A DNA stretch of 64,000 bases, from contig SCQS01000034.1 of the NCBI GenBank assembly GCA_004299705.1, positions 1 to 64,000 of the forward strand. The letters run 5' to 3'. A program made the translations under genes and the position numbers. The notes under the pieces were generated by a model that saw only the letters and a list, made by a program, of their open reading frames with translations, did no database searches and had not been told where the DNA came from. This DNA comes from Rhodanobacteraceae bacterium. Its GTDB lineage: Bacteria; Pseudomonadota; Gammaproteobacteria; Xanthomonadales; Rhodanobacteraceae. Below, piece after piece: positions 20,172 to 22,664 of this stretch (positions within the stretch are counted from its first letter, which is position 1; every line of letters starts with the position of its first letter).

Positions 20172-20208
20172 GGCAAGACGAGCCGCCTGTCGGCGACTCG
20201 TCTTGCCA
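20172..20208 (-). terminator. Hairpin downstream of PEP-CTERM gene 1
   Basis: An 11-bp perfect stem (GGCAAGACGAG / CTCGTCTTGCC) lies 4 bp beyond the gene's stop. There is no T-tract, so it may stabilise the 3' end rather than act as a classical terminator. Confidence 0.6.
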
Positions 20209-20212
20209 TGGT

Positions 20213-20962
20213 TCACACGGCGATGCGCGCTCTTTTCTTTTCGACCGACCGACGCCACGCGAACAGGCCGAGCATGGCAGCGCCGAACAGCCACAGGAGA
20301 TCGGGCTCCGGCACCGACGCGGTGGCAAACGGCGGTCCCGGCAAAACCGCGTAGCCGCCGTCGGAGGTCAATTCCAAGACCGCCATGCCATAGGTAAGCC
20401 CGCCGGATCCTGGCCCAAAGAAGTCAGGTGGAACCACTCCGAAACTCCACAGGTCCAGGAAGCCGCCGTTGCTGAGCGAAAACATCACGCCGTAAGGGTC
20501 GAGGAAGCCACCGAAGAATGGGTAATCCCAGCAGGTCTGCGGCGAGCCATCGGCGTAAAAAAGATCGTCGTACGTGATCACGCCATTGTCCTGCGCCGAG
20601 GTGCCGGACGCGGCAAGCTGGCTGAAGCTCGCCGGGAATGGCAACATACCGGGTTGCCATGTGCCATCGGCGACATCGAAAGGCGTGGCGAAATTGCGTG
20701 CCCGCACCCCGGTGATCGATACCGTGCCGAAGGCCGAGTTTGAAAAGCTGCCGCTGGCGCCCATGACGAGTTGAGCTCCGGACGGATCGCCTGCCGTGGT
20801 ATCGGGCACGACATTCAGTAAAGCATGTCCGGTGCCGCCTGCTCCATTGAAGCCGATTTCGACCGGGTTGGCACGGGCATTGGGCGCCAGCAGAAACGCT
20901 GCAAGCATCGCGCCGGCCGCCAGGATTCCGGTTTGGGTCAACAGCCGCTTCTTCGTGTTCAT
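20213..20962 (-). CDS. PEP-CTERM sorting domain protein 1
   Basis: A 249-residue secreted protein: a signal peptide (basic MNTKKRLL, then hydrophobic, cleavage near ARANP), a beta-rich mature domain, and a C-terminal exosortase signal with VPEP, a membrane helix (LLWLFGAAMLGLFA) and a basic WRRSVEKKR tail. Exosortase is expected to cleave and anchor or release it at the cell surface, usually with exopolysaccharide. ATG 20962 has a GGAGG site 7 nt upstream. It is a paralogue of the gene at 21539-22267 and has its own sigma-54 promoter (21031-21048). No exosortase gene is in the window. Confidence 0.9.
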   Translation of the reverse strand: MNTKKRLLTQTGILAAGAMLAAFLLAPNARANPVEIGFNGAGGTGHALLNVVPDTTAGDPSGAQLVMGASGSFSNSAFGTVSITGVRARNFATPFDVADGTWQPGMLPFPASFSQLAASGTSAQDNGVITYDDLFYADGSPQTCWDYPFFGGFLDPYGVMFSLSNGGFLDLWSFGVVPPDFFGPGSGGLTYGMAVLELTSDGGYAVLPGPPFATASVPEPDLLWLFGAAMLGLFAWRRSVEKKRARIAV

Positions 20963-21030
20963 CGCACAACCTCCACTTTGCACATGGGGCAGGGCAAGCC
21001 GCTCTGCGGGCACTCTCGGGCGGACAGAGA

Positions 21031-21048
21031 AGCATTACGCGTGCCAAA
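21031..21048 (-). promoter_or_regulatory. Sigma-54 promoter of PEP-CTERM gene 1
   Basis: On the minus strand the sequence reads TTTGGCACGCGTAATGCT: a perfect -24 TTGGCACG, 10 nt between the invariant GG and GC, and TGCT at -12. The predicted start site is near 21021, giving a leader of about 59 nt. Confidence 0.85.
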
Positions 21049-21096
21049 TCGCAGGTGGTTGATTCTCCTAAAACTTTCTTGGGCCGCAGAGATGAA

Positions 21097-21114
21097 TTTG
21101 TAAAGTTTGTCTAC
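21097..21114 (-). promoter_or_regulatory. Upstream element C (GTAAAG..TGTC.AC)
   Basis: TTTGTAAAGTTTGTCTAC on the plus strand, 49 bp upstream of the sigma-54 promoter of PEP-CTERM gene 1. It matches the 15-nt consensus of sites A, B and D except for one base (T for G near the end). Confidence 0.65.
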
Positions 21115-21299
21115 GTCGAGCGACGTGGGTTCGCCCGCGGACGAAACGCGTGGCCTGGGTTCGGGCTTCCTGAACGGTGTCATCTCCACACTGCTTATGA
21201 GCGCGGAACCCTGTCCTGACGCGGGCTTCCTCTCGAAAGAACGGCGAAGTCGCAGGCTGTCGGCGTGCGACAAAAACCGCGCAACGCGCAGCGGCCCGT

Positions 21300-21317
21300 T
21301 GCGTAAAGAATGTCGAC
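21300..21317 (-). promoter_or_regulatory. Upstream element D
   Basis: GTAAAGAATGTCGAC at 21303-21317 matches the same consensus, about 250 bp upstream of the sigma-54 promoter of gene 1, still a workable distance for an enhancer-binding activator. Confidence 0.55.
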
Positions 21318-21496
21318 GCAGAAGCGGCAGCCTGTGCGTTGAAGGGGTGGGTCGACTGCTCGGCAGGTACGGCGCATGTCCATTGCACGCTGGCGGGCGT
21401 TGCGAAGCCAGCACGAAACACCCGGCCTCGCGTCTGGACATCCCCATCGAGTGGGGCGAGACCCACTGGGTCGATGCTTGATGGCGGGTGCTTGAA

Positions 21497-21533
21497 GGCA
21501 GGGCGAGCCGCCATGTCGGCGGCCCGCCCTGCC
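21497..21533 (-). terminator. Hairpin downstream of PEP-CTERM gene 2
   Basis: Outer stem GGCAGGGCG / CGCCCTGCC and inner stem GCCGCC / GGCGGC lie 5 bp beyond the stop of the gene. The layout parallels 20172-20208 after gene 1, and there is likewise no T-tract. Confidence 0.6.
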
Positions 21534-21538
21534 ATGAT

Positions 21539-22267
21539 TCAGCCAGCGATGCGCGCCCTTTTCTTTTCGACCGACCGACGCCACGCGAACAGACCCAGCA
21601 CGCCGGCGCCGAACAGCCAGAAGAAATCCGGTTCGGGAATGGATGCGGTGGCGAACGGCGGGGCGCCCAGTACCTCGTAACCGCCGGCGCCGTTCGGCTG
21701 GATCACTTTCAGCCCGTAGGTGAGGCCGCTTACGAATGGCGGCAATTCCTCCGCCGCGGGGTCGACGACCCCGAAACTCCAAAGATCCACGAAATCGCCG
21801 TTGTCGAGAGCGAACATCACGCCCATGAGATCCAGGAATCCGCCGGAAAACGGCCAGACGAGATCTCCATTCACATAGCAGATCAAAGGCGATCCGGTCG
21901 GGTAGAACAGGTTGTCGTAGCTGACTCCGTCGTGGTCTCCGTAGCCCGGGATCGGAAACAGGCTGTAGCTGTAAGGCAGTACTTCACCGGCTGCCGTGGT
22001 GGGATCGAGACCCCGCACCCCCGTGATTGCCACGCCGTTGAACATGCCGCTGGCACCCGTGATCGCCATGGGCGAGTGGTCGGGATTCACTTCATCGCCG
22101 GCATGGGGCGCCCCGAGCGTGAGGTCGGCATAGCCGCTGCCCGGTGCCCCGCTGAAGTGGATCCTGACCACGCTGGCGCCGGCATTGGCTGTGAACGCAC
22201 ACGCGACCAATGCCGCGAACGCCGTGCAAAGCCAGGTCTTGATGGTTGATGGAGTCCTCGCTTTCAT
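21539..22267 (-). CDS. PEP-CTERM sorting domain protein 2
   Basis: A 242-residue secreted protein with a signal peptide (MKARTPSTIKTWLCTAFAAL, cleavage near NAGAS), a mature domain resembling gene 1, and a C-terminal sorting signal: IPEP, a membrane helix (FFWLFGAGVLGLFA) and WRRSVEKKR. The final 20 or so codons are almost identical at DNA level to those of gene 1 (21546-21604 versus 20217-20275), indicating recent duplication or conversion. It is controlled by its own sigma-54 promoter at 22351-22368 with two upstream elements. The function of the mature part is unknown. Confidence 0.9.
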   Translation of the reverse strand: MKARTPSTIKTWLCTAFAALVACAFTANAGASVVRIHFSGAPGSGYADLTLGAPHAGDEVNPDHSPMAITGASGMFNGVAITGVRGLDPTTAAGEVLPYSYSLFPIPGYGDHDGVSYDNLFYPTGSPLICYVNGDLVWPFSGGFLDLMGVMFALDNGDFVDLWSFGVVDPAAEELPPFVSGLTYGLKVIQPNGAGGYEVLGAPPFATASIPEPDFFWLFGAGVLGLFAWRRSVEKKRARIAG

Positions 22268-22350
22268 TGCTGCAACCTCCCCGTGGAACTTGAAAAGCCC
22301 CTGTGCCTGCCTTTCGGTTACCTTTCGTGAACCTTTCGGCAGGACTGGAA

Positions 22351-22368
22351 AAGCAATTCATGTGCCAT
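22351..22368 (-). promoter_or_regulatory. Sigma-54 promoter of PEP-CTERM gene 2
   Basis: On the minus strand it reads ATGGCACATGAATTGCTT: TGGCAC at -24, 10 nt between GG and GC, and a perfect TTGCTT at -12. The predicted start site is near 22341, about 74 nt before the ATG. Confidence 0.88.
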
Positions 22369-22429
22369 GCGAGCAGGCGGCTCGTTTTTGCCCTGAATCG
22401 AACGTGGCCCATGGGTTCGGACACGGGGT

Positions 22430-22447
22430 TTTGTAAGAATTGTCGAC
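22430..22447 (-). promoter_or_regulatory. Upstream element A
   Basis: TTTGTAAGAATTGTCGAC on the plus strand, about 60 bp upstream of the sigma-54 promoter of gene 2. Together with element B it forms a direct repeat that also shares a flanking GGACAC (22419 and 22461). Confidence 0.7.
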
Positions 22448-22471
22448 GCTGTTTCGGCTTGGACACTGATT

Positions 22472-22489
22472 TTTGTAAAGGTTGTCGAC
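22472..22489 (-). promoter_or_regulatory. Upstream element B
   Basis: TTTGTAAAGGTTGTCGAC, 42 bp (four helical turns) from element A, which would place two activator dimers on the same DNA face. Confidence 0.7.
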
Positions 22490-22664
22490 TCCCTTGCGGG
22501 CTGCTGTAGGCGTGGCGGATGTACCGAAATACGAGAATGCGCGTGGCGCGAACAGGTCTGCGCGTTTCCGGTCAAGCGCAACGCGGGTGAAGGCGCCGGC
22601 CGGTCTGGACACGCCCGTCTGGTCGGGCGAGACTTCGCCCGATCTTTGACGCAAGGAATTCGTC

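Follow-up and report, generated by a model that had tools for sequence, protein, structure and literature searches.

The 64,000-nucleotide window analysed here (positions 1 to 64,000 of contig SCQS01000034.1, Rhodanobacteraceae bacterium, assembly GCA_004299705.1) carries two genes for PEP-CTERM proteins, each preceded by a -24/-12 promoter of the σ54 type and by two copies of a 17-bp element that is a candidate binding site for the NtrC-type activator PrsR (Table 1). A purely computational comparison of these promoters with those of other genomes revealed that the distance between element and promoter falls into discrete classes about one helical turn apart, and that a sequence resembling the binding site of the integration host factor (IHF) often lies at a conserved position beside the promoter.

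The pair of PEP-CTERM genes reported in a preliminary description of this DNA was retrieved, both proteins scoring above the PF07589 cut-off of 20.7 bits. With the TIGR02595 profile, gene 1 scored 16.4 bits when the genome was searched (cut-off 16) and 12.2 bits when the protein was scanned, and gene 2 was absent from the listed matches. The two proteins are paralogous (53% identity) and both have an N terminus that, judged by eye, resembles a signal sequence and a PEP-CTERM tail at the C terminus. A strong hairpin lies directly 3' of each stop codon. No T run accompanies either hairpin and neither was called as a terminator; the one behind gene 2 is probably a 3' end, and the presence of a hairpin after each stop codon is in keeping with single-gene units.

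Table 1. Features of the two PEP-CTERM genes and of their upstream regions. Gaps count the bases that separate the TTTACA of a site from the TGGCA of the promoter.
Feature	Coordinates	Strand	Gap	Remarks
Gene 1, PEP-CTERM protein, 249 amino acids	20213..20962	-		own promoter; ATG with GGAGG ahead; PF07589 26.0 bits
Gene 2, PEP-CTERM protein, 242 amino acids	21539..22267	-		PF07589 27.4 bits
Hairpin 3' of gene 1 stop	20172..20207	-		-38.6 kcal/mol (59-nt stretch), z -6.8
Hairpin 3' of gene 2 stop	21497..21533	-		-42.9 kcal/mol (58-nt stretch), z -7.6
Gene 1 -24/-12 promoter	21031..21046	-		TGGCACGCGTAATGCT; 1 mismatch to consensus
Gene 2 -24/-12 promoter	22352..22367	-		TGGCACATGAATTGCT; 1 mismatch to consensus
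PrsR-type site C, gene 1 proximal	21099..21115	-	52	17-mer CGTAGACAAACTTTACA
PrsR-type site D, gene 1 distal	21302..21318	-	255	CGTCGACATTCTTTACG; functional role putative
PrsR-type site A, gene 2 proximal	22432..22448	-	64	CGTCGACAATTCTTACA
PrsR-type site B, gene 2	22474..22490	-	106	AGTCGACAACCTTTACA; 42 bp upstream of A
IHF-like site, gene 1	21052..21064	-		AATCAACCACCTG; -18 from TGGCA; 1 mismatch to WATCAAN4TTR, at conserved position

The element, read towards the gene, is GTCGACAANCTTTACA. Its 15-nt core GTAAAGNTTGTCGAC is matched at 21100-21114 and 21303-21317 with one mismatch each, at 22433-22447 with two and at 22475-22489 with none, so that the four copies described earlier, two per gene, are all present, and the 42 bp given for the A-B spacing is right. 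The length of 15 nt was too short, as the informative stretch over the 120 pairs of set 1 (see below) covers 17 nt, TGTCGRNANNYTTTACA; the letters of the search pattern are conserved there by construction, which does not apply to the first T, the R or the blank flanks. When up to three mismatches were allowed, the window contained 13 matches against 2.6 expected, a number reached in none of 100 shuffled sequences, and the remaining nine of the 13 have three mismatches each. Sites C and B end in TTTACA, A in CTTACA and D in TTTACG, site D standing far beyond the usual site-to-promoter range. The -24/-12 promoters proposed for both genes were also found, each box with one mismatch to TGGCACGN4TTGCW. 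Matches to this box are unremarkable on their own (20 against 16.9 expected at two mismatches); when a site with at most three mismatches had to be followed by a box with at most one at a gap of 45-90, the window gave exactly two pairs and the 60 simulated 64-kb sequences gave none.

Haft et al. 2006 (PMC1569441) reported that proteobacterial PEP-CTERM genes are preceded by a 17-nt motif 1, sometimes repeated, whose 3' end is TTTACA, that the spacer to the σ54 motif 2 averages 62.8 nt (standard deviation (SD) 10.6, range 32-92), and proposed the cognate activator PrsR as the protein binding motif 1. As far as the text of that paper allows the comparison, the window element would be this motif 1: in both cases a 17-nt motif ending in TTTACA, repeated at some genes, stands about 63 nt before a -24/-12 promoter of mostly single-gene operons. 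The gaps of 52 and 64 found here lie within the 32-92 nt of that report. The novelty that the preliminary description saw in the geometry was overstated, since motif, repetition, spacer and PrsR assignment are all in the text of the 2006 paper, and the window locus itself is a further instance of a known PEP-CTERM/PrsR promoter type. For the spacer, the text of that paper gives mean, SD and range only, and a term search of it returned neither IHF nor DNA-helical spacing; spacing classes and an IHF-like site are what the present study adds. These two additions, which the preliminary description did not have either, seem to be new: among open-licence PMC papers, PEP-CTERM and integration host factor were associated only incidentally, judged by title and abstract start, and no genome-wide account of periodic enhancer spacing at σ54 promoters was found in that literature.

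The genome from which the window originates encodes PrsR (C13:6681-8003, 671.9 bits in the profile search, cut-off 502.6) with PrsK (706 bits) and PrsT (589 bits) adjoining it, the exosortase TIGR02602 (C60:53055-53759, 189.3 bits) and the IHF alpha subunit (TIGR00987, 158.3 bits, cut-off 120.25); rpoN is presumably present, given PrsR and the other NtrC-type activators. Exact matches to the degenerate element number six over the 3.6 Mb of the genome: the window accounts for four, one near prsKR precedes a PEP-CTERM gene and one is on C46. A further 15 matches have one mismatch, which makes 21 in all against 14 for the reversed control. The surroundings of one of these 15 (C20:131086) were checked. 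The match at C46:1774 lies inside a frame read as tryptophanyl-tRNA synthetase and was set aside as a chance occurrence. A matrix search placed the site-promoter pair also at PEP-CTERM loci on C20, C18, C48 and C53. The search of the genome around other PEP-CTERM genes and prsKR, as suggested earlier, thus added five loci (one a remnant, one near prsKR) and one protease gene that have the element ahead of them. The proximal gaps are 52 for gene 1, 64 for gene 2, 63 on C13, 52 on C20, 52 on C18 (a weak site) and 64 on both C48 and C53, and for all eight promoters of the genome they read 52, 52, 52, 63, 64, 64, 64 and 64. The genome has 11 PEP-CTERM family matches at E values up to 5, six of them over the cut-off, and one of these six (C11) is without a site-promoter pair.

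Two of these loci deserve a separate description. On C46 (18451-18545; L233 52-146) a strict pair with a gap of 64 stands before a pro-kumamolisin-domain gene that has no PEP tail in frame, and this gene is likely a PrsR target outside the PEP-CTERM family. On C53 (L170 1250-1620), a 57-amino-acid frame that comprises little beyond a PEP-CTERM tail is directly preceded by a good σ54 box and by PrsR-type sites at gaps of 157 and 64; it appears to be the remnant of a gene whose promoter has been retained.

The association of the element with PrsR was assessed by running a strict site-promoter pattern (gap 35-65) on 369 genomes of the class. It gave 43 matches in 34 genomes compared to a single match for the reversed control. 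PrsR exceeded its cut-off in 106 of the 369 genomes and is encoded by 33 of the 34 that have a strict pair; the pair therefore occurs in 33 of 106 PrsR genomes against 1 of 263 others. Together with the presence of prsKRT in the genome of the window, this co-occurrence supports the earlier proposal of the element as a candidate PrsR site. Another NtrC-type activator could in principle use the element instead, as seven other matches covering the central activator region are found in this genome, all below the PrsR cut-off. Such a role is highly improbable, however, given the genome counts above and given that the element precedes PEP-CTERM genes within the 19-20 kb stretches around prsKR, both in this genome and in two of the three relatives examined. 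Within the family, PrsR was detected in 4 of 117 genomes and a homologue of the gene pair in 2 of 117, this genome and G813, and the system is therefore patchy across the family. The G813 homologue is single-copy, has a decayed site at gap 51 and lies near the same gene as in the window, a gene called DsbA-like from reading the sequences.

Two sets of site-promoter pairs were collected for the study of the spacing. Set 1 comprises 120 pairs in 118 stretches of named genomes among the matches listed, with gaps of 46-76 allowed. Set 2 was obtained from 34 genomes over gaps of 20-95, and from G618 and G697 over 20-50 and 65-96 only; it comprises 58 distinct pairs after removal of one identical to a set 1 pair (common to G697 and L098). 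As the removal was limited to identical pairs, the two sets may have species in common, and the statistics carry no correction for relatedness. The set 1 gaps are strongly clustered, with none at 46-48, 20 at 49-53, 5 at 54-59, 74 at 60-65, 2 at 66-71 and 19 at 72-76, which places 113 of the 120 pairs inside the three clusters. For the 61 pairs with a PEP-type tail downstream, the last five ranges hold 9, 0, 39, 0 and 13. The concentration at a period of 10.5 is 0.68 (0.80 for the 61 PEP-tailed pairs), whereas 20,000 draws from a single smooth bell curve never exceeded 0.308 (0.423 for the 61-pair case). The same classes are found in set 2, where one gap is at 43, 5 at 51-53, 37 at 61-65, 9 at 73-76 and 6 at 83-86, with none between (57 of 58 pairs inside the clusters). 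Taking both sets, 170 of 178 pairs belong to four clusters with means of 51.4, 62.85, 74.07 and 84.67 bp, and the step from cluster to cluster is 11.21 bp (bootstrap 95% 10.99-11.46). A phylum-wide search of 398 genomes returned three matches, with gaps of 73, 83 and 84. No VPEP-type tail was found within 2.5 kb of 59 of the 120 set 1 pairs; among these are several with a variant tail (VPAPG, for instance), some that are cut short and some in which no target could be recognised. Pairs in records titled Bilifractor, Eubacterium, Chloroflexi and Acidimicrobiia (gaps 55, 76, 58 and 74) are probably due to chance and were kept in every count.

An alternative source of such clusters would be inheritance from a small number of ancestral promoters, with no helical constraint. 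Related genomes are indeed present in both sets, with at least one species common to the two, and the statistics ignore the tree. Nevertheless, the steps between clusters are even, two or more spacing classes coexist within one genome in 13 of 36 genomes, and alpha- and betaproteobacterial records alike contain each of the classes near 52, 63 and 74, all of which makes shared descent a very unlikely source of the pattern.

Further copies of the element were more frequent than expected. In the 120-pair set, same-orientation second copies at the highest threshold within 300 bp number 16 against 0.2 expected, at distances of 21-275 bp, and inverted second copies number 4 against 0.2, three of them at 20-23 bp. 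None of the 16 lies at 42 bp and they show no phase, and the A-B spacing of four turns of 10.5 was therefore not taken as a rule. A second upstream copy is present at 6 of the 7 PEP-CTERM promoters of the window's genome compared to 12 loci of the 120-pair set, the latter having been chosen for perfect proximal sites and some of their loci being incomplete.

The consensus of IHF is WATCAAN4TTR, and the location of its pseudo-dyad within this sequence allows both orientations to be compared. With at most one mismatch, the reverse consensus was found in 47 and the forward consensus in 22 of the 113 clustered set 1 spacers, compared to about 6 for each orientation in shuffled sequences and to 3 (reverse) and 5 (forward) in the 65 bp preceding the site. 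Reverse matches mostly start 30-33 bp and the forward ones 18-20 bp upstream of TGGCA, two places that mirror each other about -19.5, as expected of one bend centre bound either way. When these places were fixed from set 1 and applied to set 2, an IHF-like site was present in 22 of 58 spacers against 0.57 in shuffles (maximum 4 in 500), exact matches numbered 9 of 58 against 0.03, and windows shifted by 5-12 bp gave 0-3 per orientation at one mismatch. In all, 80 of the 178 pairs have an IHF-like site near that place. Four of the seven PEP-CTERM promoters of the window's genome carry one within one mismatch, as do all four PEP-CTERM promoters found in the relatives G813 and G777 (gaps 63, 63, 51 and 63; 0-1 mismatch at -18/-19). 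Three of these were in the 19 kb surrounding prsR, and the other is that of the gene-pair homologue.

Mere AT-richness, or an intrinsic curvature beside the promoter, could mimic such a site: the spacers are AT-rich near -18 to -21, that of gene 2 carries an A5 tract in place of the consensus, and 98 of the 178 pairs lack the consensus within one mismatch. Shuffles of the same composition, however, do not reproduce the count, the shifted windows are nearly empty and both orientations occur at mirror-image places, so that we consider this explanation unlikely and retain a placed IHF-like site.

The distance from the PrsR site to the IHF-like site steps by 10.72 bp between classes (95% 10.33-11.07), and the place of the IHF-like site itself drifts by 0.48 bp per class (0.18-0.82). 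Because of this drift, reading the 11.2-bp step as the in vivo helical repeat was toned down. In the main class, among the 80 pairs with an IHF-like site, the PrsR-to-IHF distance has an SD of 0.81 compared to 1.11 for the gap, and the gap tracks the IHF offset (r 0.69). Since the step is 10.72 bp and the gap follows the IHF offset, the phasing of the PrsR site to the predicted bend seems no poorer than its phasing to the promoter.

Taken together, the motif, the promoters, the co-occurrence with PrsR, the clustered spacing and the placed IHF-like sites, all present in the sequences, lead us to infer PrsR binding and phosphorylation, looping, activation and IHF occupancy. Very probably, the two genes are separately transcribed members of a PrsK-PrsR regulon, activated by PrsR sitting on one face of the helix and reaching the σ54-RNA polymerase through a short, often IHF-bent loop. 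Each gene would form its own transcription unit for an exosortase substrate under the control of PrsK-PrsR. Phosphorylated PrsR would occupy the 17-bp element, which lies 51-86 bp ahead of the -24 box, and contact the polymerase by a short DNA loop. As the intervening stretch of some 5-8 turns would be too short to twist freely, the site would be confined to one helical face, and the spacings would for this reason step by about one turn. In many promoters, that of gene 1 included, IHF beside the promoter would bend the loop.

Several observations weigh against this proposal. G126 has a pair and no PrsR match at threshold, and the relative G839 has PrsR and, in the 19 kb around prsR, no pair at the threshold used. 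Eight of the 178 gaps fall outside the clusters, and the further upstream copies show no helical phase. Finally, no IHF consensus within one mismatch is found at the expected place in 36 of the 58 set 2 spacers, nor in the 98 pairs of both sets mentioned above, and the gene 2 spacer (gap 64) has at best 4-5 mismatches.

Similar arrangements are known from other σ54 promoters. The pepA promoter of Aquincola tertiaricarbonis, with its start site at a -24/-12 box by primer extension and its RpoN1 dependence, likewise combines such a box with a predicted upstream enhancer (PMC9850573); the portions of that report considered here do not include binding-site geometry or a direct test of PrsR. NtrC/NifA-type promoters are described with IHF between the activator site and the promoter (PMC7962754, PMC5263251), and helical phasing has been demonstrated for activation loops (PMC7408454), and for lac loops in E. 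coli a turn in vivo was put at about 11 bp (PMC8501960), as far as these sources were covered. Unlike in the NtrC/NifA-type examples consulted, the phase classes described here come from the natural variation among many promoters of a single regulator family.

Some records of the collection show the pair in other surroundings. In nine of them (L078, L088, L102, L110, L114, L116, L118, L121 and L143), a site and a σ54 box at a gap of 64-65 are followed by a GC-rich hairpin and no PEP-CTERM gene. Eight of the nine are titled sphingomonads or erythrobacters, L110 being titled only Pseudomonadota, and eight have GTCTC- or GTTCT-like letters in the loop. Their hairpin stretches gave no Rfam match. 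Folded alone, six of the nine have z below -2.3 and three do not; in an imperfect alignment of seven, both partners change in 4 of the 11 base pairs, but 8 of the 11 are disrupted in some sequence, with a slightly unfavourable covariation term (+0.42). The stretch looks like a σ54-driven small RNA, and no PEP-CTERM-linked small RNA in Sphingo- organisms was found in the open-licence PMC literature. In L054, L128 and L160, a pair with a gap of 64 precedes a small open reading frame that starts with MY and resembles a short membrane protein; the gene that follows was read by eye as argJ. L080 (462-1413), from a contig titled Phycisphaerales, encodes a PEP-CTERM protein with a tail, VPEPNFLWLFGAGVLGLFAWRRSAE, close to those of the window, and has two PrsR-type promoters; this contig may be mis-binned.

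As a general rule, we think it likely that PrsR promoters across the Proteobacteria consist of a σ54 box, an IHF pseudo-dyad that may face either way and is placed about 19.5 bp upstream of that box, and a PrsR site only at whole turns from the bend (gaps of about 51, 63, 74 and 85; one turn measuring 10.7 bp towards the IHF centre and 11.2 bp towards the promoter), that these spacings record the geometry of the activation loop, and that the rule finds targets beyond the PEP-CTERM family, including a small-RNA-like hairpin transcript in sphingomonads. The steps of 11.2 bp to the promoter and 10.7 bp to the IHF centre would then be a comparative estimate of the helical geometry of an activation loop. 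At least one bacterium has been studied in which PEP-CTERM proteins take part in forming flocs (PMC9850573). In the papers considered here, the PrsR site has been only a prediction since 2006, and the spacing rule makes this prediction sharply testable by comparing half-turn with full-turn changes and improves the finding of its targets in unannotated genomes.

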